From NCBI GenBank assembly GCA_913061265.1, contig CAJXVS010000007.1:124001-188000 (forward strand): a DNA stretch of 64,000 nucleotides. The letters are read 5' to 3'. Both the position numbers and the translations under genes were made by a program. The notes beneath the pieces were generated by a model, which was not told the origin of the DNA, did not search any database, and worked only from the letters and a program-made list of their open reading frames with translations. Of this stretch, positions 2,936 through 36,000 are shown piece by piece. Each line of letters starts with the position of its first letter. Positions within the stretch are counted from its first letter, which is position 1. The stretch comes from an uncultured Halobacteriovorax sp. GTDB lineage: Bacteria; Bdellovibrionota; Bacteriovoracia; Bacteriovoracales; Bacteriovoracaceae.

Positions 2936-2992
2936 ATGAGGCGGGCCTATCCTATAGTTGTCCTACAGTGTTGTACGTTTGCTCCAGGATAA
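2936..2992 (+). CDS. Possible 18-residue leader peptide
   Basis: A short frame MRRAYPIVVLQCCTFAPG begins with ATG at 2936, 7 bases after a strong GAAGGAG Shine-Dalgarno (2922-2928). It stops with TAA at 2990-2992, 13 bases before the GTG start of the next gene, in a different frame. It could be a leader peptide that couples or attenuates translation downstream. A sequencing or evolutionary frameshift that split the original 5' end is the other explanation. Confidence 0.35.
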   Translation: MRRAYPIVVLQCCTFAPG

Positions 2993-3005
2993 ATCGGGGG
3001 ATAAA

Positions 3006-4523
3006 GTGTGCAAACAAATAGGGTTACTCTTTTTCTTATGGCTGCTTACAAACTTCGCTTTCGCAAGCGAGTATGATTTTCCTTTTTATAATTACGAAAA
3101 GTTTGTCCAGGTAGATAAAAAGCAGTGCCGCTTAAATATTACTCATCAAAGAATCATCACTCAGAAACATTATGAAGCAAATACAAAGTTAATGGCAATG
3201 CAGTGGCTTGGAAAAAAACCGGCTCTAGATGATCCTTTTAAATTCTGGAAGGCGATGCCAGGCCTCTCTCTTCAAAATTCTATGCGCTACCGAGATATGT
3301 ATGTTCATGAACAAATGATGCACAAAATTCTTGATCGTGAATTTAAAGCACTTAAGAAAATAGGTAATGCTGGCGGAAATAATTACAACCGGCTACAAGC
3401 TAAGAACAGTCAAATCGTCATGCAGAAACTCTCTATAAGTAGGTCTTACTTACTTGAGATGGAAGAGACTATCCTTAAGATCTTAGGGGCGCAGACGGTT
3501 TATAAGAAACGAGGAGCTAAGGAAGAGGGTCTTCAAAATAAGAATCAGTATGATAAGTCTTTTACTCCTGGACTTTATAGCGCCACATACGCATCTTCAG
3601 AATACGAAACAAAACATAATAAAGGTTGTATGTGGTCACCGGATAGAATGATTAAATCAAGTGAGCCTTATTGCGGTTTTGTTTGGAGTCATAGTGGAAA
3701 CTTCTATTTAGAGCGTTGCCCAGGGGATGTTCATCCCTTTGGAAAAGGTCATGCCGCTGGCGCCGGAGTTGAAACAGTAAGAGAGCTCTTTAGTTTTACT
3801 TCAGTAAAAGAGTGCCCAGTAAAACCGAGCTGCGGTAGTGGTTGTTTTAACACTTGTATCAAGAAAGATCAGTTCAACCCTAGAAGAACAAGTGAACTTG
3901 TTGATGGGAAATGTAATGAATTGGTAGATCCTCTCTTTCCAAAAGAGGTCAGCGAGAAAACTCTAACCGCTCAATTTCTAAAAGACTCAAAGAATTTTAG
4001 CGTTTGGTATCCAAAGTTTGAAGAGAATCAAAGAAATATCAAAGACGTCGCGGCCGAAATAGAAAGATACTATCTTATGACCGGTGATTATAAAGAAGAA
4101 GACTGTAAGAAAGGAAAGAGAGAATACCTCTTAGAGATACTAGACGCAGTAAAGCAGCTGATCTCTCTAGAAGTAAATTTGAAGGAATACTATGAAACTT
4201 CTTCTTACTGTCATATTAAAATTGCAGAGGATGTCGAAGAGAAAACGATAGACGGGTTAAAGCATTATATTTTAGATGATGTTAAAGATAAGAAAGGCGA
4301 TTCTAGTGCCCTTACGGCCCTAGTGAAAAATGGCGGAAAGAAGAAAGTAAGTTTTACGGAACAAGAATTAAAAGAGATGCAGTCCTCTTACTTTGGAATG
4401 ACCTATGCCGAAGAGAAAAGCATGCTTAAGGGTCTTATCAAGAATGACTATAAGTTCACCAACGATCATATGGGAATTATCTGTGAGAGAAGCAAGAAGA
4501 AGGACTTTTGTGGTGGTAAGTAG
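3006..4523 (+). CDS. Cys-rich exported protein of unknown function
   Basis: I do not recognise the family. From GTG 3006 the product is 505 residues, with a signal peptide of about 20 residues (CKQIGLLFFLWLLTNFAFAS). This start is chosen because GGGGG lies 5 bases upstream. A longer in-frame start (TTG 2958) would put a polar 16-residue tail before the signal peptide and has no ribosome site. The mature protein is mixed-charge, with a Cys cluster in the middle (WSPDRM..CGFVW..CPGDVHPFGKGHAAGAG, then CPVKPSCGSGCFNTC), suggesting disulfides in the periplasm or outside. The C-terminal third is Lys/Glu-rich and helical. It stands alone between the S66 gene and the aminotransferase lipoprotein. 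Confidence 0.7.
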   Translation: MCKQIGLLFFLWLLTNFAFASEYDFPFYNYEKFVQVDKKQCRLNITHQRIITQKHYEANTKLMAMQWLGKKPALDDPFKFWKAMPGLSLQNSMRYRDMYVHEQMMHKILDREFKALKKIGNAGGNNYNRLQAKNSQIVMQKLSISRSYLLEMEETILKILGAQTVYKKRGAKEEGLQNKNQYDKSFTPGLYSATYASSEYETKHNKGCMWSPDRMIKSSEPYCGFVWSHSGNFYLERCPGDVHPFGKGHAAGAGVETVRELFSFTSVKECPVKPSCGSGCFNTCIKKDQFNPRRTSELVDGKCNELVDPLFPKEVSEKTLTAQFLKDSKNFSVWYPKFEENQRNIKDVAAEIERYYLMTGDYKEEDCKKGKREYLLEILDAVKQLISLEVNLKEYYETSSYCHIKIAEDVEEKTIDGLKHYILDDVKDKKGDSSALTALVKNGGKKKVSFTEQELKEMQSSYFGMTYAEEKSMLKGLIKNDYKFTNDHMGIICERSKKKDFCGGK

Positions 4524-4588: not shown

Positions 4589-7039
4589 GTGAATAGATCC
4601 ATACTCTTATTGATATTTATCTTTACTATGTCTTGCTCCACAATCAATGGACCTAGTACAAGCTCTCGCTCGATCGCGAGCACGAAAGCTTCAAGCTTTT
4701 GCAGAAAAATCGTTAGGAACTTGTTTGAAGCCGATAGTTCAGTTAAGGCCCAATCTGCAGAAAAAATATTTTCGGAAAAAAAGGCCTTAGAGCAATACCT
4801 AGAGTTAGTGGAAGAGAGGCCTACTCGTTTTGAAAGGTCACTTTTCAGTGATGAAGAAGTAAAAATTCTTGAGAGTACTAAATTTCCTTTCGAAAAAGCG
4901 AAGATACCAGTCCCGCTTGAGTCTCTTGATGAACTTCACTTTTTGTCTAAGGCTAGTGAAGCAGAACTCGTTCAATTTTTCAAACAAGCTGCTAACACTG
5001 AAATTCAAAACCTATTCAATATCGCTAAAAACTCTCATTCAATAGACCTAACTTCACCTCATTGGGATATTTTCTTTAGGAGAAAGGTAAGTCATGATGT
5101 TTCTCAAAGAAGTTTTGATGAAATACGAGGACTCTTAGAATCTTTTTATGTTTCACCAAGAGGTGAAGCAAAAACCAGAGCCGAAAAACTTAGTTCTTAT
5201 TATCTTGTTGTCGATCGACAAGAGAACCCTTTTGATGAATCTCAGGTTCCTGAGCTTATCCGACTTTACCGCCTAAGCTCAGGGGAGCTTAGAGAGCACT
5301 TCGAAAAATCGACTTTAGAAGAGCTTCAGCAAGTCAGCGAAGTTTCTCGTCAGTTTAACGAAAGATACGCTAAAGTTTATTTTTTAGATGTCATTGGAGA
5401 AGATGAGGCTTTAAGTCCTGCTGATGATTTAGGTTATGTTTTTAGCCGAGCTCAACATGAGATTAGAGCAAGAGAAGAACTGTTAGAGACCAAGAGAAAG
5501 AAAGAAATTCTTGAGTTAGAGCAAAAGGCTGCTGCAAAAGCCCTTGAAGAAGAAGAAGCTTCAAAGGAAGCTCTCTTGGCAAACCCCCAAGGGATTGTAA
5601 AAGATACGCCTTTAACGATAAGGGAAGATAGTTTTAACTTCCATGATGAGATTTCAGACCAGGATTTATTGCTAGCCTATATCAGTTTTCAGAGTAATGG
5701 GAAACTTATTCTTCTTGCCGAGCCTGTTAAAAAAGTCTTTCTAGAATTGGCTGAGGAGATTAGTGAAGAAGCTCTCAATAGTACCGAGGCAAAAAAGAAA
5801 ATTCTTGAAAAATTTTTAAGTAAAGTAGAGAAAGAGGATTTGAACTTTGTTTTTGGGAAAAATATCTCAGGCGTTAAGAAAAGTATGGAAGTGATGAGTC
5901 AGGTTGCCAATTCTTATAAAGACTATCCCGAGGGCGCAAAGAATATGCACAGAGGTTGGGCCTGGAGGCTTTTAGCTGATGACGATGAAGTCTGGAATGA
6001 CCCTGAGTACCTTCAATTAACGGTAAGATTCTCAAATGCTTTTGGGGGAGGGTTAAGCTCTTCTAATAGATCAGAGTACCAAGCTGTTAAAGGTAACTTC
6101 CTTCATGAATGGAGTCAGTTATCACCAGGTTATAGTCCTATAGCTTTTACTCAAACGGGAAGTGATGCCAATAATCTCTTTTATACAGTCGCCTTATCTA
6201 ATGTAAGAAGAACAATTTCAAAAGATGCTAAAGATGCAGAAATTTTATATTTAGATGGAGTCTATGGTGGAGTAAGAGGAAAAATTTCTGGTGCCGGTTA
6301 CCATGGAATGGGAAAAGAAGTCGCACCAAATTTAGATGAGTTCAAAATCCCTTCCCCAAGGACTTTATCCTTCAATCCAACAGACCCTGAAGAAGTTGCT
6401 CGTCTTGAAGAACTCGAAGAACAGGCCCTAAAAGCGATCGAAAAAAAGTATTTAGCTGCTAAAGAAACTGATAAACCTATCGGAGGGTTTTTCCTAGAAA
6501 GTATTCAAGCTACCAGCGATGGCGTTTGGTTCTTTAGACCAGGTTTTATTTCTAAAGTTCAATCTCTTTGCAAAGAATTAAATATTCCCATTTTTGCAGA
6601 TGAGATTTTGTCTGGTGGCGGAAGAAGTGGAAAGTTTTGGGCCTATGAACATTACCCAGGGTTTAGCCCTGACTATGTTAGTTTTGGGAAAGGTCTACAA
6701 GTTGCTGGAGTAGCAAGTAAAGGTGGGACTACCATAAACCCTCTTGTTACGCAGGAGGCTCAAATTGAATCATTGTTAAAGTCTACAATGATCTTAAAAA
6801 GAATTAGAAGTGGAAATCTCATAGAGAATGCAAGAGTCATGGGTCAATACCTAATGGATAAACTTTTAAAACTGAATCCCCCAATTGAAGGAGCGACTAT
6901 CGATCCTTATGATGCCACTAGGGGGATAGGGATGATGATTTTTCCAGGCAGAGCTAGAACCGCAGCGCTTCCAGCGCAAGGTAGACTCTTTCCTTATTTA
7001 AGTATCTCCAAAGAAGAAGTCGACGAGCTCATAAAATAA
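4589..7039 (+). CDS. Lipoprotein with C-terminal class III aminotransferase domain
   Basis: An 816-residue protein. Residues 1-16 are a lipoprotein signal (hydrophobic stretch, then TMSCS lipobox with Cys16). Residues about 20-400 are charged, helical and unrecognised, with a KRKKEILELEQKAAAKALEE coiled coil. The C-terminal half is a PLP-dependent class III aminotransferase. TGSDANNLF matches the SGSEAN phosphate loop, FADEILSGGGRSGKF holds Asp671 for the pyridine nitrogen, and FGKGL holds Lys701 as the Schiff-base lysine. The 30-residue D-to-K spacing is one longer than usual. Lipid anchoring of a PLP enzyme is unexpected, because cofactor loading normally occurs in the cytosol. The GTG start has no clear SD. 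Substrate unknown. Confidence 0.75.
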   Translation: MNRSILLLIFIFTMSCSTINGPSTSSRSIASTKASSFCRKIVRNLFEADSSVKAQSAEKIFSEKKALEQYLELVEERPTRFERSLFSDEEVKILESTKFPFEKAKIPVPLESLDELHFLSKASEAELVQFFKQAANTEIQNLFNIAKNSHSIDLTSPHWDIFFRRKVSHDVSQRSFDEIRGLLESFYVSPRGEAKTRAEKLSSYYLVVDRQENPFDESQVPELIRLYRLSSGELREHFEKSTLEELQQVSEVSRQFNERYAKVYFLDVIGEDEALSPADDLGYVFSRAQHEIRAREELLETKRKKEILELEQKAAAKALEEEEASKEALLANPQGIVKDTPLTIREDSFNFHDEISDQDLLLAYISFQSNGKLILLAEPVKKVFLELAEEISEEALNSTEAKKKILEKFLSKVEKEDLNFVFGKNISGVKKSMEVMSQVANSYKDYPEGAKNMHRGWAWRLLADDDEVWNDPEYLQLTVRFSNAFGGGLSSSNRSEYQAVKGNFLHEWSQLSPGYSPIAFTQTGSDANNLFYTVALSNVRRTISKDAKDAEILYLDGVYGGVRGKISGAGYHGMGKEVAPNLDEFKIPSPRTLSFNPTDPEEVARLEELEEQALKAIEKKYLAAKETDKPIGGFFLESIQATSDGVWFFRPGFISKVQSLCKELNIPIFADEILSGGGRSGKFWAYEHYPGFSPDYVSFGKGLQVAGVASKGGTTINPLVTQEAQIESLLKSTMILKRIRSGNLIENARVMGQYLMDKLLKLNPPIEGATIDPYDATRGIGMMIFPGRARTAALPAQGRLFPYLSISKEEVDELIK

Positions 7040-7341: not shown

Positions 7342-8070
7342 ATGAATCCATCTATTATTTCAATCATAAATGTGAAAAAGTCCTACGGAACAAAAGAAGT
7401 TCTTAAGGGCCTAAGCTTGCAGGTGAGTGAAGGTGAAATCTATGGCTTCCTCGGTCCTAATGGTGCAGGTAAAAGTACAACCATCAAAATTCTTATAGGC
7501 CTTACTGATTGCGAATGTGATGACATTCTTTTAGCTGGCCATAAACCAATACCTAGAAATACAGAATACTTAAGAAATATTGGCGTCGTTCAAGAGGCCC
7601 AGAGCCTTTACGATAATTTTACCGTCTATGAGAACTTAGACCTCTTTAGAAAACTTTTAGGACTTGATGTTTCAAGACTCGAAGAACTCCTCGATGAGTT
7701 AAAATTAAGAGATCATCAAGATACTAAGGCAAGTGAACTCTCTAAAGGCTTTAGGCAAAGAGTTTTAATTGCTAGGGCCTTCTTACATAAACCAAAGATT
7801 CTTTTTCTAGATGAGCCTTCAAGTGGTCTTGATCCAATTGCTGCTGATAAAGTTCATCAGTTTATAAAAAACCTTAAGGAATCAGGAACCACTGTTTTTA
7901 TCACTTCTCATTTTATGGAAGAGGTTGAAGAGCTTTGTGACCGTGTTGGCTTTTTAAAAAATGGAAGCTTAATCGAAGAAGGAGTTCCGCGCGAACTTCT
8001 TGTAAAGTACTCAGCTAAAAGACTTAAAGATGTTTTCCTGACTCTGTTAAAGGATGATGACGATGAATAA
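7342..8070 (+). CDS. ABC transporter ATP-binding protein
   Basis: A 242-residue nucleotide-binding subunit. It has Walker A GPNGAGKST (residues 39-47), Q-loop at VVQEAQSLYDN, signature LSKGFRQRV, Walker B ILFLDEPSSGLDP and the switch His in TSHFMEE. The sequence is of the ABC-2/CcmA type used for export of drugs, polysaccharides or proteins, or for membrane remodelling. The downstream gene overlaps it and encodes the matching permease, so one operon and one complex are expected. Substrate cannot be read. The start lacks a good Shine-Dalgarno, but a TATAAT lies just upstream. Confidence 0.92.
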   Translation: MNPSIISIINVKKSYGTKEVLKGLSLQVSEGEIYGFLGPNGAGKSTTIKILIGLTDCECDDILLAGHKPIPRNTEYLRNIGVVQEAQSLYDNFTVYENLDLFRKLLGLDVSRLEELLDELKLRDHQDTKASELSKGFRQRVLIARAFLHKPKILFLDEPSSGLDPIAADKVHQFIKNLKESGTTVFITSHFMEEVEELCDRVGFLKNGSLIEEGVPRELLVKYSAKRLKDVFLTLLKDDDDE

Positions 8071-9289
8071 TTCTTTAAAGCCATTGTTCTTTAAAGAGTT
8101 AAAGGACTTCTTTAGGCATCCTCAAAGTCTTGCCATGTTCTCCATTGTTCTCTTTATGAACATCCTCCTCTCTTTTGCCATAGGGGAGCTCTTTGTTGAA
8201 ATGACTGTGAATATGTCACTGGTTATGATCGGCTTTTATTGTCCGGCTTTCTTAACAACTGAAGAGAAAGAAAAGAAGACCCTGACGGCCTTATTACTAA
8301 CTCCTATAAGCACAAGAAGTATTATCTTTGGAAAAGCTGTCTTTTATACCTTTGCCACTTTTGTTGTGACCATGGGAATTGTGATCTATTTTCACTGGAA
8401 GGAAACCTATTTTATCTCAAGTATCTTAGCCATTCTTGTAGGATCGTTCTTTGTCTCTATCCTAGGAATAGGGGTAGGGCTTATCGCTAAGAAGCAATCA
8501 GAAGTCTCTGCTATAGGAACTATTCTCCTTTTATATCTTTTTCTTCCAGAGCTTCTTTATGGAGTTAAACCTATCATTTCAATGATTGCTTTAACTCTTC
8601 CTATTCATCATATCTTAGGGGCGATTAGAGCGCCTTTTCTCTCGTTTGAATTCTTTAAGTTCTTCAGCTTCTTAATCCTCTTTACGGGAGTGCTTTTTAT
8701 TTGGGTAAAGAACTTAGCGGCAGATGTTTTGTTAACGGAAGATAATAAGTTTAAGATAGGAAAAAGAGATTCGATCTTCTTAGCTTCACTGATCATTATC
8801 TCAGTCTTTTCCATCAATATCTTCTCGGAACCTAAGGTTTTAATGACGACGATTGAGAACGATACTTATCTTGAATATCCCTTGAAAGAATTTAAGATTC
8901 CTTTCAATGATAGCCGCTACGACTTTAAGCAAAAGAAGCTGCTTCAAAAGCCTATTCTTATCCTAACTAATAAGGAAAATAAGAGCGCTAAGATAAGAAT
9001 CATCTTTAAGAAACTCTTAAAAGAAGAGAATCTAGAATTTCATAAATTAAAGTATATCGAAGAGCTAACTAAAGACGGTGATCTAAAGGTTCAAGACTCT
9101 AAGATTGACCTCGGTGGAAAGGCCGTTCATATTCTTTCTTATGAAGGGACTCAAGGATTAGAGAAAATCTATCTTTTTGAAATGAGGAATGTTCTTATAA
9201 AGGTAACCCCAGAGTTAAGACTTAATAAAACAAAAACTTATCAGGAAACGGTCAATGATACTGAATTTATGATCCGCCACTGGAAATAA
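8063..9289 (+). CDS. ABC-2 type permease
   Basis: An inner-membrane protein of about 408 residues, partner of the preceding ATPase. It has six hydrophobic segments in residues 20-235 and a seventh at about 248-265. A polar C-terminal domain of about 140 residues follows, probably extracytoplasmic. The motif FLTTEEKEKKTLTALLLTPI is typical of ABC-2 permeases (NatB/YhaP-like). The ATG at 8063 overlaps the ATPase stop and has AAAGGA 8 bases upstream. ATGs at 8054 and 8057 are possible but sit against the ribosome site. The transporter pair is an exporter by family; the cargo is unknown. Confidence 0.85.
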   Translation: MNNSLKPLFFKELKDFFRHPQSLAMFSIVLFMNILLSFAIGELFVEMTVNMSLVMIGFYCPAFLTTEEKEKKTLTALLLTPISTRSIIFGKAVFYTFATFVVTMGIVIYFHWKETYFISSILAILVGSFFVSILGIGVGLIAKKQSEVSAIGTILLLYLFLPELLYGVKPIISMIALTLPIHHILGAIRAPFLSFEFFKFFSFLILFTGVLFIWVKNLAADVLLTEDNKFKIGKRDSIFLASLIIISVFSINIFSEPKVLMTTIENDTYLEYPLKEFKIPFNDSRYDFKQKKLLQKPILILTNKENKSAKIRIIFKKLLKEENLEFHKLKYIEELTKDGDLKVQDSKIDLGGKAVHILSYEGTQGLEKIYLFEMRNVLIKVTPELRLNKTKTYQETVNDTEFMIRHWK

Positions 9290-9299
9290 TGCCGTAGGT

Positions 9300-10169
9300 T
9301 TAGTTCTTCATCCACTCAATACATTTTCTTAGCTGCTCTTTCATCTCAGAAGTAGTCGAGGCCTTAAAGGGCGCTCCATGACCAGGTAGTACATGGGTGA
9401 AATCATAATTAAGTAACTTCTCCATACTCTCAATCTGAATCTTAAAGTCATACCAGCAGGCCGTTTTAAAGGCGTAGAGATGATCTAGGTTCTTGCTAAA
9501 AGCTAAGTGATCACCTGTAAAAAGATACTTCTCTTTATAAAGAAGAACCGTATGACCCTTTGTATGGCCAGGAACAGGAATGACGAGAAGGTCATTATCA
9601 ATAGGATAGTCATCTTGGCCTTCAAGCTGAATCTCAAAGTGATTTGTTTTCTCAGAGATATCATCTTTATGCATTAGCCTCTTTGCTTGAAAGTTCTTCT
9701 GATAAAGGTCCGTATCGGCTACATCGTCTCTATGGGTTAAGTACTGAAGAGAGACGCCACCCTGGTCCGCAATATTCTTTGAAATGACACTCGAGTAGCG
9801 GGGAGAGTCGACAAGAATATTTCCATTTTCTCTTTGAATAAAGTAACTAGCAGCTCCATAGGAATTCTCACTATGATAGCCATTATGAAAGACATTCTCT
9901 TCGATTAAAAGAGGAAAGGTCTTACTTACTCTTCTCATCTCAACTCTTTGTCCGGCATAGCCAATAGAGTTTGTAGGGCAGCTGAAGAGTGCTTCCATGG
10001 CGCGCTTCTCATCTTTAAATTCTGGCTGCGTTGTAACAGCGCTCATGCCACTGATTTCTTCAAAAACCTTTGGGGCCATCCAATAACAAGTTCCGCAATC
10101 AATACAAGTTTGATCGACATAAAAATTACCCTCTACATTTTGACTTCTTTTATTTTTTATATTGGCCAT
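9300..10169 (-). CDS. Ferredoxin-fused metallo-beta-lactamase-fold hydrolase
   Basis: A 289-residue cytoplasmic protein with two domains. Residues 18-72 form a ferredoxin-like [4Fe-4S] module with C22, C25, C28 and C64 (CIDCGTC then SCPTNSIG). Residues 85-289 form an MBL hydrolase. The metal motif is the variant THRDDVAD (H146), followed by VPGHTKGHT, TGDHL and the C-terminal LPGHG. This fusion family is known in cyanobacteria and plants as an MBL protein with a ferredoxin domain; the substrate is not established. It is the last gene of a three-gene run on this strand with the YciO- and TruC-like genes, 2 bp after the YciO-like gene. Confidence 0.85.
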   Translation of the reverse strand: MANIKNKRSQNVEGNFYVDQTCIDCGTCYWMAPKVFEEISGMSAVTTQPEFKDEKRAMEALFSCPTNSIGYAGQRVEMRRVSKTFPLLIEENVFHNGYHSENSYGAASYFIQRENGNILVDSPRYSSVISKNIADQGGVSLQYLTHRDDVADTDLYQKNFQAKRLMHKDDISEKTNHFEIQLEGQDDYPIDNDLLVIPVPGHTKGHTVLLYKEKYLFTGDHLAFSKNLDHLYAFKTACWYDFKIQIESMEKLLNYDFTHVLPGHGAPFKASTTSEMKEQLRKCIEWMKN

Positions 10170-16160: not shown

Positions 16161-18302
16161 ATGAAACAATTATTTTTCTACGCCCTTATTTCAAGTTTAT
16201 TCTTATCCTTTGAGGCCATGGGAGCCGAAGCTTTTGGTACTCCAGGCATCACTCCTAACTGGGCATCAGCTAAGAATGTTCAAGTAGGAACAAGCCTAGA
16301 ACTTAAGACAAGTAATTCGCCACTATGGTTTACAAATGCTGAAGGTGCTTTAACAGAAGTCTTCTTTCCCACTATCGATACTGGACAGATCAAAGATGCT
16401 CAATTTCTTATTAGTGATGAAAAGACTTTCTTCGTTGAAGAAAAGAAACAGACTCATCATGAAGTAAAAGTTCTCTCAAGTTCTCTTGTTCAATTAATAA
16501 ATAAAGATAAGCTTGATCGCTTTGAAATTAAGCATACCTTCTTTACTCTAGGAAATAGTCCTGTTCTCATCGATGAAGTTGAAGTTGTTGCAAAAAGAGA
16601 TGGGCTTAAGTTCTTTCACCTATCGAATCCACATATTAATAATACTGGTTTTAAAGATTCAGGATTTAGCAAGGATGGTGGCTTTGTCGTTAGACAAGGA
16701 AAAACAGGTCTAAGAATCCTTTCAAGTGTTGGCTTTAGAAAAAGATCAGTAGGCTTTGTAGGGCATTCAGATGGTTGGCAAGATCTAAAGAAAAACCTGC
16801 AAATGAATTACCTCTATAGTTCAGCGCAAAAAGGAAATATCGCGACAACTGGTGAAGTTAATATCCCAGCTAAGAAAGGAACTTATAAGTTCTATATCAT
16901 CTATAAGTTCAGCGAAAACATCGACGCTCTAAGTGCTACCTTCAAGAAGGATTACTCGAGTGAGAAAGCTAAGTACCAAAAGGATTGGAAGACATATTTA
17001 GATTCACTCAATACGCCAAAGAATTTAAGTGCTGACGAGCATATGCTTTATAAAAGATCGATCTACACCCTTAAGGTTCATGAAGATAAGAGAGTTCGTG
17101 GGGCGCTTATTGCTTCACTTTCAATTCCTTGGGGAGAGAAACAATCTGAGACCCCAGGAAATAAGATTGGTGGCTATCACTTAATCTGGCCCAGAGATCA
17201 TTATCATGTGGCCCTAGCGATGTTGTATTCAGGAGACCTTGAAACTCCTATGAATGCTCTTAGATTTCTTAAGAAGATTCAGTACAAGAAAGGCTCAGGG
17301 GCCTGGGAAGTTTCTCCTCGCTATATTTTAAAAGAAGGGGCTTTCCCTCAAAACACTTGGGTGACAGGAGAAGAATACTGGGGTGGTCTTCAGTTAGATC
17401 AAGTTGGTTACCCAATTCATCTTTTTTATCAAACCTACTTAAAAGTATCTGATCAAAAGAAAAAAGAAATGCTTAAGGAATTTGGAGGCATGTTAAAAAG
17501 TGCTTTAAGTTTTATCTTAAAGTACGGTCCATGGACTCAGCAAGAGAGATGGGAAGAGAACTTTGGAATCTCCCCCTCTTCTTTTTCAGTAGCCACTTCG
17601 GCCCTTATAATCGGTAGCCGTCTTTATAATGGTACAGATCTTGGAAAAAGAAGTGCCTCTACAGCGAATGGCTGGATGACTAAACCAGGTGATAATATTG
17701 ATACTTGGACCTTTACTACAAATGGACGTTACGGAGACGGGCAATACTATTTAAGAATTGCTGGTGGCTCTAGCTTTGGGGCCACTTGGAATCCTAATGA
17801 TAGATCAGAAACGCATATTGCAAACTCAAGTAGAAGAGTGGAGCAAAGCTTAATTTTGGATCAAGGTTTTATGAAACTTGCTCTTATGGGACTTAAGCCT
17901 GCAGGTGATTGGCGTATTCAAAAAACGAAGAGCTTAGTAGATAAGCATATTTCAGTTCAAACTCCTAACGGACGTGGCTGGTATCGCTATTCATTTGACG
18001 CTTATGGAGAGGAAGGAAAAGGACGCCTATGGCCACTTCTCTCTGGAGAGCATGCTCGTCTAGCTATCGAAGAGTTCAGTGATAAGACGGCTTCGTGGGA
18101 AGAGACTAAAAAGAAAACTAATCCGATTGTTAAAAGTTATGTGGATTTTGCTAATAGTGGGATGATGATACCTGAGCAAATCTTTGAGCATAATGGATTA
18201 GGCACTGGAGCTGCGACGCCACTAGCTTGGAGTCATGCTGAATACGTAAAACTTCTTTGGTCACTTGATCTTAAGAAGAATATAGAGAATGTACTTGAGT
18301 AA
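16161..18302 (+). CDS. Exported GH15 glucoamylase/glucodextranase-like enzyme
   Basis: A 713-residue enzyme with a signal peptide (residues 1-21). Residues 25-270 form the beta-sandwich N-domain of bacterial glucoamylases (AFGTPGITPNWASAKN). Residues 290-710 form the (alpha/alpha)6 barrel. The acid is E465 or E466 (RWEENFGISPSS) and the likely base is E672 (MIPEQ). GYHLIWPRDHYH and TGAATPLAWSHAEYVKL are family hallmarks. It should release glucose from alpha-glucans in the periplasm or outside. AGGAG precedes the ATG. The next gene overlaps it by 14 bp, and the glucose PTS lies 2 kb downstream on the other strand. Confidence 0.92.
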   Translation: MKQLFFYALISSLFLSFEAMGAEAFGTPGITPNWASAKNVQVGTSLELKTSNSPLWFTNAEGALTEVFFPTIDTGQIKDAQFLISDEKTFFVEEKKQTHHEVKVLSSSLVQLINKDKLDRFEIKHTFFTLGNSPVLIDEVEVVAKRDGLKFFHLSNPHINNTGFKDSGFSKDGGFVVRQGKTGLRILSSVGFRKRSVGFVGHSDGWQDLKKNLQMNYLYSSAQKGNIATTGEVNIPAKKGTYKFYIIYKFSENIDALSATFKKDYSSEKAKYQKDWKTYLDSLNTPKNLSADEHMLYKRSIYTLKVHEDKRVRGALIASLSIPWGEKQSETPGNKIGGYHLIWPRDHYHVALAMLYSGDLETPMNALRFLKKIQYKKGSGAWEVSPRYILKEGAFPQNTWVTGEEYWGGLQLDQVGYPIHLFYQTYLKVSDQKKKEMLKEFGGMLKSALSFILKYGPWTQQERWEENFGISPSSFSVATSALIIGSRLYNGTDLGKRSASTANGWMTKPGDNIDTWTFTTNGRYGDGQYYLRIAGGSSFGATWNPNDRSETHIANSSRRVEQSLILDQGFMKLALMGLKPAGDWRIQKTKSLVDKHISVQTPNGRGWYRYSFDAYGEEGKGRLWPLLSGEHARLAIEEFSDKTASWEETKKKTNPIVKSYVDFANSGMMIPEQIFEHNGLGTGAATPLAWSHAEYVKLLWSLDLKKNIENVLE

Positions 18303-31935: not shown

Positions 31936-32937
31936 ATGCGCGCTACGGTATATGTTAATTTATTATTTCTCATTTTGGGCCTTAGTTCTTGTGGGAATCT
32001 TAAGAAACAAAAAAAGATTATCGTTAGATCTGGCGAAAGACCTGCATGGCTTTTCGAAGCCGGAAAAGCCTGTCAGAGATATGAACTCTGCGCAGTCGGG
32101 GAAGCCCCCGGAAGACTAGGGGCCGAGATCGCTGCTAGAAACAACTTGGCCAAGATCTTTGAAACCAAGATTAAATCAACTCTAAATATTCAAACAACCT
32201 CAAACTCAGAAACCATCGATCAAGTCGTCACCGGAAAGATCAACGAAGATGTCTCGGAGAAGATCGAGCTAGAGACTAAAGAAGTATTAAAAGGAGTAGA
32301 AGTTAAAGAGTTCTTTGAAACCAAGGATTCGTTCTTCGCCCTTGCTGCTCTTGATAAACCTCGCGCGGCTAAAGGGATTGCTTCAGAGATAGAAACTGTT
32401 GATACCGAAATGATAGCTCTTATTAATGATGGTAGGCGAAGTTCTCTTAATAAGGGACTAAGGCTGTACAGAGTTCGTGAGGGCCTAAACCTTAGGCACC
32501 TGTTTCTTAGTGATAAGAACTTAAGATCTCCCATTTCACTTTCCTCAATATTAAAGAAGAAGAAGGCAAAAAGAGATTTAGGGACAATCATTAAAGTTAG
32601 CTTCAAAGAAGTTGGTCGTATCTCTCAAGTTAAGAATATCATCACGAGGCATCTTCTTGATTATGATTTTAAGGTAGTAAACTCAAGTTCTAAGAAATCA
32701 GAGTATCAAATAAGAGGAAGCCTTAAAGAAGAAGAGCAGCATATGAAAGTCTCAGGTTTTAAGCGCTTTAAGTTCTTCTTAACTCTAAAATCTCTGAATA
32801 GAAATAATGAAAAGATAGGCGCCCTTAATTTTAAAACTATTCAATCAGGAAGAAACCTAAATCAAGCATATGAAAGTGCTTTACCTGAGATTAAAGAATT
32901 CTTAGAAGAGAAGATTATTGAACTAAATATCGATTAA
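31936..32937 (+). CDS. LPP20-like lipoprotein
   Basis: A 333-residue lipoprotein with lipobox LSSC (Cys near residue 19). RPAWL followed by AVGEAPGRLGAEIAARNNLAK at about 37-75 is the LPP20 pattern. The middle is helical and the C-terminal part (about 210-333) is a separate alpha/beta region. GGAAGG lies 9 bases before the ATG. It begins a run of four lipoprotein genes (LPP20, LPP20, LpoB, and a large TPR-like lipoprotein) with small gaps or overlaps. The set suggests an outer-membrane lipoprotein complex acting on the cell wall. Confidence 0.72.
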   Translation: MRATVYVNLLFLILGLSSCGNLKKQKKIIVRSGERPAWLFEAGKACQRYELCAVGEAPGRLGAEIAARNNLAKIFETKIKSTLNIQTTSNSETIDQVVTGKINEDVSEKIELETKEVLKGVEVKEFFETKDSFFALAALDKPRAAKGIASEIETVDTEMIALINDGRRSSLNKGLRLYRVREGLNLRHLFLSDKNLRSPISLSSILKKKKAKRDLGTIIKVSFKEVGRISQVKNIITRHLLDYDFKVVNSSSKKSEYQIRGSLKEEEQHMKVSGFKRFKFFLTLKSLNRNNEKIGALNFKTIQSGRNLNQAYESALPEIKEFLEEKIIELNID

Positions 32938-32965
32938 AGAGCAAACAAATATAAAAGGAGATACT

Positions 32966-33649
32966 ATGTCTAAATTTTTAACTTTTCTTATCGTTGGAGC
33001 GCTAACCGTTTCGTGTGCTTCAAAAGATAATAAAAAACTAGAAGAAAGAGAGCATGAGAATATCGCAAGAGATTATCTAGTAGTTGATGCTAGTTCAAAC
33101 AGCAGACCAGGTTGGATTGAAGATGCTGAAGTCTGGGCCGGTAATCATAGTAAGGATTTGAGCAAGTATACTTATTTTTCTTATGAGACAGACCCTAAAG
33201 TAAGTAGAAATATAAGCTGTAACTTAGCTAAGGCCAATGCAAAATCTGACATTGCTGGTGAGATTACAACCTTTATCGATAAGCAGCTTGGGGCTTCTAC
33301 TCAAGGGAATGCCAATATCGATGAGAACAACCCTCAGATTCAATCTTTAAGAGAGTATGTTGAAAACACTCTTACTGAAAAGATCCAGGCGTTGATCCAT
33401 GGAGCCCACGTGGAGAAGACTTACTGGGAAAAAAGAAAGTACCTAAAAGAAAAAGGGGCAAAGAAGGATTTCACTGCTTGGACTTGCGGAGTTTTTCTTC
33501 GTATGCCAACAGCAAGTCTAAAGAAGGCCATCGATGAGGCTTCAAATCATGTAGCCGGTAGGAACGATGATCCTGAAACTAAAGAGACGGTTCGTAAGGC
33601 CCTAGAAGACGCATCAGAAAATTTTATTAAAGCAAAAAAAGGCGAATAA
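32966..33649 (+). CDS. LPP20-like lipoprotein
   Basis: A 227-residue lipoprotein with signal and lipobox VSCAS (Cys17). RPGWI near residue 48 and the helical CNLAKANAKSDIAGEITTFIDKQ, then TWTCGVFLRMP, match LPP20-like proteins, related to the preceding gene product. Two cysteines (ISCN and WTCG) could pair. AAAAGGAG precedes the ATG. It is the second gene of the four-lipoprotein operon, 28 bp after the first. Confidence 0.7.
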   Translation: MSKFLTFLIVGALTVSCASKDNKKLEEREHENIARDYLVVDASSNSRPGWIEDAEVWAGNHSKDLSKYTYFSYETDPKVSRNISCNLAKANAKSDIAGEITTFIDKQLGASTQGNANIDENNPQIQSLREYVENTLTEKIQALIHGAHVEKTYWEKRKYLKEKGAKKDFTAWTCGVFLRMPTASLKKAIDEASNHVAGRNDDPETKETVRKALEDASENFIKAKKGE

Positions 33650-33664
33650 GCTTAAGGAGCATTC

Positions 33665-34276
33665 ATGAAAAGAATAAATATACTATTTTTACTAGGACTT
33701 TTAACCATAACTAGCTGTTCTAGCTTTAAAGCAGAGCGTGTTGATAACGAAGAGTCTGATGAGAAGGCCCTTGAGATTACTGATCAATGGGTTCAAAGAG
33801 ATACTGAGAAAGTTGTTGGGGAAATCCTTGAAAGCATTAAAAAACATAAAGGCTTTCAAAACTATCTTCGTCGTCACGGTAAGACTCCAACAGTTTTTAT
33901 AAGCAATGTTCAAAACCTAACGAGCGAAGCTTATTTTCCTATCAATGATATCAACGATGAGTTCTTAAATGAGATCTCAGCTTCAGGTGACTTTATCCTC
34001 GTCGATGCTGCCGCTAGAGAGTCTCTTTTAAAAGAGATTACTTATCAGCACGATGGAATGGTTGATCCCTCTACAGCTAAAAGAGTTGGTCGTCAGACAG
34101 GAGCCGATCTCTTAGTGTTTGGTAACGTCTTTATGAAGCCAGCAACGAGAAAAGGTAAAACAATCAAGCAGTACGCGGTCAATATCAGAATGACTGACCT
34201 TGAAAAAGGCATAGAAGTTCTGAGAACAAGATCTAAACTTTCTAAGTATTCTGAGCAAAGCGGATCTGGGTGGTAA
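33665..34276 (+). CDS. LpoB-like penicillin-binding protein activator
   Basis: A 203-residue lipoprotein with lipobox ITSC (Cys18). The domain TPTVFISNVQNLTSEAYFPIND...MVDPSTAKRVGRQTGADLLVFGNV follows LpoB, which spans the periplasm to stimulate class A penicillin-binding proteins. Within this fold the nearest relatives are CsgG-like. AAGGAG precedes the ATG. It lies 15 bp after the LPP20 gene and overlaps the next lipoprotein gene by 7 bp, so it is likely part of a cell-wall-associated lipoprotein complex. Confidence 0.78.
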   Translation: MKRINILFLLGLLTITSCSSFKAERVDNEESDEKALEITDQWVQRDTEKVVGEILESIKKHKGFQNYLRRHGKTPTVFISNVQNLTSEAYFPINDINDEFLNEISASGDFILVDAAARESLLKEITYQHDGMVDPSTAKRVGRQTGADLLVFGNVFMKPATRKGKTIKQYAVNIRMTDLEKGIEVLRTRSKLSKYSEQSGSGW

Positions 34277-36000
34277 AGCCTAAGTTACTATTACCTTATT
34301 TATTCATTTCTCTTTTTCTTTTCTCCTGTGCAAGTGGGGGGAAGAAAGAGAGGAATAAACTTCGAGAACTTCTAAGGACCTCACAATTTAGTGAAGCTTT
34401 AAAAGTTATCGAAGAGAGCAAAGTCTATAAAGATAAAGATAACCGCTTACTCTTTCTCATGGAGAAAGGCCTTCTTCTTCATTCGGCGGGGAAGTACTAT
34501 CAATCTTCCGAAGTCTTAAAAGAAGCAAGAGAGCTTGGGCGAGCTCTTTTTACTAAGAGTATCTCCAATAAAGTTCAAAAACTCATCGCTAACGACAACT
34601 ATGATATCTATTATGGCGAACGTTACGAGATCTCTCTTATTCACTTCTATCAGGCCCTTAATCATCTTCTTATCTCTAAACAAGGCTTCTATGAAGCTTA
34701 TGAAGTTAAAGAAGGGAAGGATGGCGTAAGAAAGATTGCTCAAAGAGAATTAACAAAGAAAGAGATTAAAGGCAGAGAAATGTCAGCGAGGGCAGAAGTA
34801 TTGGCCTGGGATTCATTTCTTACTAATTTAAAAAATGAGAGAAAAGGATCGAGTGTCTTTAAGAACGACCTTTTGGCCAAAGTCTTTGGGGCCTATATTC
34901 ATGAATTGATCGGAAGCCATACGGATCTGCAGATTGCCCTTCAACTTTATAAAGATTCTCATAAATTATTGGTGAGAAATTATGGCGCTTATAAAAGCTT
35001 TAATGGCTCTTATAAAGAATATAATAAAAACTATGATAAATTTCCCAAAATAGGGGAGAGAGATGTCAAAGCGAAGTTTATAAAAGAGACCGCTTATCAA
35101 AAGCAACTTAAAGAATTCTTAAATGAAAGAATAGTAGATCTTACTTATGAAATTAGGCCTAATGGTATTCGCTCTTTAAAAAAGACTTACGGTATAACAA
35201 AAGCCTTTCTTAAAAAAGTCTCTAAAGAAAGAAACCCTAATATTACGATCCTCTTTCAAAAAGGAATCATTCCCTTGAAAGTAGGATCTAAGGAATACTT
35301 TGGTCTTGGCGCGGCCATGAACGACCCTAAAGCCGGTGCAGCCGCTAAGATTGGCTCTGCGGTGTTAACAGTTTTTGCAGCCTCTCAGCTAGGATTACTG
35401 CCGCCGCCTAGACATTACTCGCCAGCAGGGGCTTATCTTGGAATCAAAGTCGCGGAGGCCGCCGTCACTGGGGCAGCCGTTAAGTTTGAATTACCAAAGA
35501 TAAAAAACCCCGGTATTCATTATACAAATGAAGTTTTAATAAAAAATAAGGAGGGAGTTATCGTTGCAAGAAAACCCCTCTCTCTTGTTGCTCCTCTTGG
35601 TGATATAGCCGAGCAAGCTGTAGCTGAGCAGGCCACCTCTGTTTATAAACGAGTTGGTGCAAGGCTAGCCATAAAACATATCACCGCCATTGTTGCGGCC
35701 TTCGCGACTTACAAGGCCATGAGTTCTGGAAAGAATGCTTCATTTTTTGCTAAGCAAGCGGCCATCATCCAATACCTTGCTAGCGCTAAAGGAATAGAAA
35801 ATAGTGAGCGCGCTGATACTCGGTTTTGGAGCTCACTCCCATCAGACGTGTGGATGGGGAAGTTCAAATTGGCTAAAGGTTCTTATCAAGTATTTGCAAA
35901 GATTCATGAAGCGGGGGTGAATCGAGAGCTTCTTTTAGGCCCTTTAGAAGTAACAGAAGAGAAAAAGAAAGAGCTCTTCAATTTCCGTAGCTTCCTCTAG
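34270..36000 (+). CDS. Large helical-repeat lipoprotein (COG3014-like)
   Basis: A 576-residue lipoprotein with lipobox FSCAS (Cys19). Residues 30-150 look like TPR-type helical repeats (LLRTSQFSEALKVIEES, LLLHSAGKYYQSSEVLKEA, ISLIHFYQALNHLLIS). A Gly/Ala-rich region lies at about 355-410 (GAGAYLGIKVAEAAVTGAAVKFELP). The arrangement resembles the COG3014 lipoproteins that I recall next to LpoB genes; this is memory, not a search. The GTG start overlaps the LpoB-like gene by 7 bp. It ends the four-gene lipoprotein operon. Confidence 0.65.
   Translation: MVKPKLLLPYLFISLFLFSCASGGKKERNKLRELLRTSQFSEALKVIEESKVYKDKDNRLLFLMEKGLLLHSAGKYYQSSEVLKEARELGRALFTKSISNKVQKLIANDNYDIYYGERYEISLIHFYQALNHLLISKQGFYEAYEVKEGKDGVRKIAQRELTKKEIKGREMSARAEVLAWDSFLTNLKNERKGSSVFKNDLLAKVFGAYIHELIGSHTDLQIALQLYKDSHKLLVRNYGAYKSFNGSYKEYNKNYDKFPKIGERDVKAKFIKETAYQKQLKEFLNERIVDLTYEIRPNGIRSLKKTYGITKAFLKKVSKERNPNITILFQKGIIPLKVGSKEYFGLGAAMNDPKAGAAAKIGSAVLTVFAASQLGLLPPPRHYSPAGAYLGIKVAEAAVTGAAVKFELPKIKNPGIHYTNEVLIKNKEGVIVARKPLSLVAPLGDIAEQAVAEQATSVYKRVGARLAIKHITAIVAAFATYKAMSSGKNASFFAKQAAIIQYLASAKGIENSERADTRFWSSLPSDVWMGKFKLAKGSYQVFAKIHEAGVNRELLLGPLEVTEEKKKELFNFRSFL

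Follow-up and report, generated by a model that had tools for sequence, protein, structure and literature searches.

A predicted lipid-anchored class III PLP protein of an uncultured Halobacteriovorax sp. and its exported relatives in the Bdellovibrionota

The gene and its N-terminal regions

The window, i.e. the whole analysed stretch of 64,000 nucleotides, contains an ORF at 4589-7039 (+) that starts with GTG and encodes a protein of 816 aa. According to ORF analysis, Pfam matches and alignments, the gene codes for a signal, a helical N-terminal region and a class III aminotransferase domain. It is preceded at a distance of 65 bases by a gene for a 521-aa protein (2958-4523, +) that is exported and has no Pfam match, and followed by an ABC transporter pair (7342-9289); neither was found again near the homologs. 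Scans for promoters and terminators at the aminotransferase gene gave results at the level of shuffled sequences. Further downstream in the window, the gene at 9300-10169 (-) presents a fusion of a Fer4_13 single-cluster ferredoxin domain with a weak metallo-beta-lactamase-like domain, and the gene at 16161-18302 (+) encodes a GH15 enzyme that resembles glucodextranases (Glucodextran_N, E 2e-63) and is exported.

The N-terminus of the protein, MNRSILLLIFIFTMSC, consists of a basic n-region, a hydrophobic core and the lipobox TMSC, which together are the features by which a lipoprotein is recognized from its sequence. The predicted Sec/lipoprotein signal peptide comprises residues 1-15 (4589..4633, +) with the lipobox T13-M14-S15-C16 and is backed by the homolog alignment and a chance control, whereby Cys16 (4634..4636, +), the predicted lipid-modified residue, is invariant in three full-length homologs. 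Thus, the lipobox signal that the earlier note had described is present and is kept at the same position in the full-length homologs. The TMSC motif is sub-optimal at position -3, where Thr is found instead of Leu, Val or Ile; the lipoboxes of the homologs read ISSC, TFSC and TVSC, with the Cys at residues 15-16. In two full-length homologs the lipobox is aligned with that of the window protein, and in the homolog from genome G127 the lipobox Cys is residue 15. Cys16 is followed by Ser at +2, which by the E. coli rule is no inner-membrane retention signal. For the chance control, a combined test for a basic N-terminus, a hydrophobic core and a lipobox was applied, which none of 15,307 35-aa stretches from the interior of the ORFs in the window passed, as against 5 of the 57 ORF starts, the aminotransferase gene among them. 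Apart from the aminotransferase gene, lipobox starts were found in the window only in four consecutive lipoprotein genes at 31936-35997 (+), whose products are an LPP20 protein (E 7.5e-8), a weak LPP20 match, an LpoB protein (E 7e-23) and a protein of 576 aa that has no family.

Between the signal and the enzyme domain, residues 17-430 are mostly helical in a poor full-length model (mean pLDDT 49, built from 3 sequences). A domain of about 400 residues without known family had been suggested for this region, and this description proved to be right, since no Pfam family (best E 0.014) and no match among PDB profiles (best E 1.8) was found for it. Copies of the region without the enzyme were not seen in 129 genomes of the family. 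Family, PDB-profile and genome searches located the larger part, residues 17-340 (4637..5608, +), in three genomes only, where it belongs to the three long forms of the protein. The approximately 90 residues adjoining the aminotransferase, residues 341-429 (5609..5875, +), also occur in the G127 homolog (E 1.9e-8, profile 318-409). We propose that the helical region is a spacer or binding part that was added in the long forms.

The aminotransferase domain

Pfam analysis, alignments and the structure model assign residues 452-816 (5942..7036, +) to a class III aminotransferase domain. The Aminotran_3 match (PF00202) covers residues 503-763 with an E value of 1.4e-23 and 83.7 bits against a curated cut-off of 30.5, which is also exceeded by the nine other members of the exported clade (see below). 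The domain begins near residue 450, ahead of the Pfam boundary, and the alignments place the clade motif RGWAWRLL at residues 455-462 (5951..5974, +). Asp671 (6599..6601, +), which is predicted to pair with the pyridine nitrogen of PLP, and Lys701 (6689..6691, +), the predicted Schiff-base lysine, which is aligned to the FGK lysine of the Mycobacterium tuberculosis L-lysine 6-aminotransferase (LAT), occupy exactly the positions given in the earlier note and do not vary within the family. Together with these two residues, Gly524, Asn528-Asn529, Glu637 and Arg679 are kept in 10/10 members; Gly524 and the two Asn residues are part of the phosphate-loop motif GSDANN at residues 524-529 (6158..6175, +), and Glu637 (6497..6499, +) was recognized as invariant from the alignment columns. 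The PLP-stacking position is occupied by an aromatic residue, which is Tyr559 in the window protein (6263..6265, +), Tyr in nine members overall and Phe in one. Thr721 (6749..6751, +), the equivalent of LAT Thr330, which contacts the phosphate from the other subunit, and Arg799 (6983..6985, +), the C-terminal Arg that binds the carboxylate in class III enzymes, are present in all nine members whose sequence is uncut by a contig end. Since this catalytic set is kept although the members are often only about 30% identical to each other, the data argue in favour of catalysis.

As checks of the assignment, the earlier note had named a fold model and a search for homologs with the same layout. Both agree with it: the domain model (mean pLDDT 86, pTM 0.87, 24 sequences) has class III aminotransferases as its closest solved structures, and full-length homologs at 45-47% identity carry the lipobox in place. 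The model predicts a fold type I protein with a large and a small domain, whereby the small domain is shortened. The top structural matches are four LAT entries (Z 36.5-36.8, identity 22-23%), among them 2jjf with Z 36.8 over 357 residues and an rmsd of 3.4, followed at a Z of about 32 by further class III enzymes and by racemases; the alignment behind the model contained several LAT-like rows, which may pull model and ranking toward LAT.

LAT (Rv3290c, PDB 2cin), a fold type I class III enzyme, is the top match by NCBIfam, PDB sequence and PDB structure, whereby the best NCBIfam model, TIGR03251, gives 84.6 bits and thus does not reach its cut-off of 520.8. The window protein has kept the LAT equivalents of the Schiff-base Lys, the Asp, Thr330 and the C-terminal Arg. 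In contrast, the glutamate switch of LAT, E243, is replaced by T642, and none of the ten members has a Glu here; the position is directly evident from the E243 mutant 2jjh, whose Ala is aligned at this site. The Arg of the LAT FHGR motif, which we take to be the substrate arginine R170, corresponds to V562, and Arg is found in 0/10 members at this column but one residue later in six. Unlike LAT, the window protein is predicted to be exported and lacks the N-terminal arm as well as some 30 small-domain residues. Clade-specific features are the motif RGWGWRLLxxDDP, which replaces the N-terminal segment of LAT and is weaker in genomes G236, G228 and G005, the GSDANN motif, and the C-terminal part, which is shortened by about 30 residues. 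Overall, the protein shares the predicted fold and probably also the kind of chemistry with LAT, but would act on a different substrate.

Exported members in the Bdellovibrionota

We searched 369 Bdellovibrionota genomes first with a profile of the three full-length proteins and subsequently with one restricted to the aminotransferase domain. The exported enzyme was found in 10 of them, which belong to 8 genera and 4 families (f1, f6, f17 and f20). Nine genomes yielded profile scores of 348-543 bits and G005 yielded 156 bits; the next matches were cytosolic LAT-like proteins with at most 151 bits. Full-length homologs occur in three genomes, namely the window's own, G001 (45% identical) and G116 (47% identical, with a sequence identical to that on the public contig L016). 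The members range from 416 aa in G236, where only signal and enzyme are present, to 816 aa.

An N-terminal signal was recognized in 10/10 members, whereby the signals were assigned by sequence inspection, the lipobox pattern and hydropathy, not by a trained signal predictor. Four members have a lipobox (window, G001, G116 and G127), the signals of G236, G228, G224 and G252 resemble those for signal peptidase I, and the signal of G126 is without clear cleavage site. In G005 the signal is followed by an in-frame TAA ahead of the enzyme frame (L005 3282-1429 (-), stop at 3120-3118), which is either a pseudogene or a sequence error; this interruption suggests that the gene can be lost. A twin arginine in front of the hydrophobic core was not found in any member of the clade. 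In the G126 homolog (L025 1015-2919 (-)), about 110 charged, coiled-coil-like residues are inserted into the small domain.

When 29 class III domains were placed in a maximum-likelihood tree, a branch supported by 100/99 separated the ten exported sequences from 19 cytosolic ones; G005 forms a long branch, the exact place of which is less sure. The best 11-residue hydropathy near the N-terminus was at least 2.36 in the ten exported proteins and at most 1.98 in 18 cytosolic ones, without overlap. The simplest reading of these sequence data is that export arose once, at the base of the exported branch. The branch thereby extends the observation, as far as sequences tell, from one protein to a clade of ten genomes.

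The genome of the window has PF00202 matches in eight other regions. Seven of these were read: six have a visible start, in each case without a signal, and the seventh lies within a long frame. These other class III aminotransferases belong to the same Pfam family but fall outside the exported clade where they are included in the tree. The same genome contains a 1024-aa frame (L047, G000:C5:26074-28779) in which two class III aminotransferase regions flank what appears to be an acetyltransferase-like stretch and which adjoins a D-Ala-D-Ala-ligase-like ATP-grasp gene, and a class III aminotransferase (L044, G000:C1:268510-269409) within a 2209-aa frame with polyketide/nonribosomal-synthase-like parts.

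At a threshold of 1e-50, no match was found in 294 Planctomycetota genomes (the phylum of G372), nor in 296 and 279 genomes of the phyla of G371 and G373, respectively, these three samples being without an internal positive control. Plasmids yielded only ordinary class III enzymes that cover about 30% of the query. Three weak relatives were found on viral contigs, and a viral structure library gave only distant PLP folds. A literature search, whose coverage left out most subscription journals, found no report on lipid-anchored or exported class III enzymes, nor on this family in relatives of Bdellovibrio.

A possible enzyme of the cell envelope

Few PLP enzymes are found outside the cytoplasm. 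The earlier note had stated that they are almost always cytoplasmic, because Sec export removes the chance to load the cofactor before folding; this is fair as a rule, but has exceptions in PvdN and PtaA (PMC6206403) and in BsrV (PMC7890096). PvdN and PtaA of Pseudomonas are periplasmic PLP transaminases that are exported by Tat in the folded state with PLP (PMC6206403; PMC6085387). The characterised periplasmic transaminases that we found use Tat because PLP is loaded before export. Like them, the window protein is an aminotransferase-type PLP protein that is predicted to act outside the cytoplasm, but instead of the Tat route it has a Sec-type lipoprotein signal without twin arginine. PvdN and PtaA belong to other fold-type-I subclasses than class III. 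BsrV is the periplasmic broad-spectrum PLP racemase of Vibrio cholerae (PMC7890096). It resembles the window protein in being a PLP enzyme in the periplasm, which for the latter is a predicted location, and differs from it as an alanine-racemase homolog with racemase activity. BsrV has fold type III, and to our knowledge it carries no lipid anchor.

The sequence analysis confirmed the window protein as a predicted exported, lipid-anchored class III PLP protein. Export and a lipid anchor are supported by the conservation of signal and Cys in the homologs, and the protein has an apparently complete PLP site. We consider it likely that the protein is a Sec-exported lipoprotein with an active class III PLP enzyme domain and that catalysis takes place in the envelope. 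From the features described we infer that it would be located, probably, at the outer membrane, facing the periplasm. The chain would cross the inner membrane unfolded, be lipidated at Cys16, and then fold, probably dimerise and take up PLP in the periplasm. There, Lys701 would form the Schiff base and Asp671 would hold the pyridine nitrogen, the phosphate would be held by the GSDANN loop together with Thr721, and Arg799 would bind an amino acid or a keto acid by its carboxylate. The active enzyme would transaminate a primary amine in the envelope or convert it otherwise, e.g. by epimerisation; modification of amine-containing surface compounds is possible. Several points count against this explanation, among them that the periplasmic PLP supply without Tat is not explained, that the distribution is patchy (10/369), that the lipobox has Thr at -3 and that the G005 homolog is interrupted. 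In addition, a conserved neighbourhood was not found: the regions of 14-15 kb surrounding eight homologs and the window protein have only the gene itself in common, leaving aside unrelated paralogs (e.g. ABC proteins), and since no neighbour gene is common to the members, no pathway is suggested.

A more specific version can be put forward only tentatively, in which a whole Sec-exported clade would load PLP after export and the protein, as an outer-membrane lipoprotein, would transaminate a new and possibly macromolecular amine in the periplasm or at the surface. A conserved clade with Sec signals and, in part, a lipid anchor makes it testable how a Sec substrate gains PLP in the periplasm and which envelope amine chemistry these bacteria need. 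The motifs RGWGWRLLxxDDP and GSDANN and the loss of the Glu switch offer a handle for finding further members and for a substrate search.

With respect to the reaction, we see a smaller chance that the exported protein is a racemase or epimerase, or catalyses another PLP reaction without keto-acid partner, on free or peptidoglycan-derived amino acids and in a role like that of BsrV. This is a special case within the preferred explanation, with equal anatomy and a different reaction. Class III-fold racemases (9wr1, 6gio and 5wya) are indeed among the structural neighbours, no supply of keto acids would be needed in the periplasm, and the loss of the Glu switch fits an altered substrate scheme. 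However, lysine 6-aminotransferase is closest by sequence and structure, and Arg799 is kept. It is rather improbable that the protein is an exported pseudoenzyme, in which the aminotransferase fold would serve, without catalysing a reaction, as a scaffold or as a module that binds a ligand. The loss of the LAT substrate residues (E243 and R170 equivalents) and the reduction of small domain and N-terminal arm would be in line with this, but all members, as far as readable, have retained Lys701, Asp671, Glu637, Thr721, Arg799 and the phosphate-loop Gly despite about 30% identity across families. The binding-only role that had been considered before thus appears unlikely, since ten divergent members have kept all catalytic residues wherever they can be read.

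The earlier note had named two circumstances that would speak against an envelope protein, and the homologs make both of them unlikely. That the hydrophobic stretch is an uncleaved anchor with the enzyme facing the cytoplasm seems very improbable. It could be argued from G126, which has no obvious cleavage site, and from the positive residues R27, K33 and R39 in the early mature part of the window protein, which are not ideal for Sec export and count against the export reading; yet a lipobox Cys at residue 15-16 in four members, signal-peptidase-I-like sites in others and the basic N-terminal residues, which favour an N-in/C-out orientation, point the other way. We regard it as extremely improbable that translation starts downstream of the lipobox and yields an ordinary cytosolic enzyme. 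In the sequence, the ribosome-binding site upstream of the GTG is weak and very near to the start, and with the next in-frame ATG (4628) as start the protein would be without a signal. However, the full-length homologs, which start with ATG in G116 and with GTG in G001, align with the window protein from Met1 and include Cys16, and this supports the GTG start. Moreover, signals are present in nine other genomes, two of them with full-length homologs of the same start and Cys, and short signal-bearing forms without the N-terminal region exist in G236 and G228.
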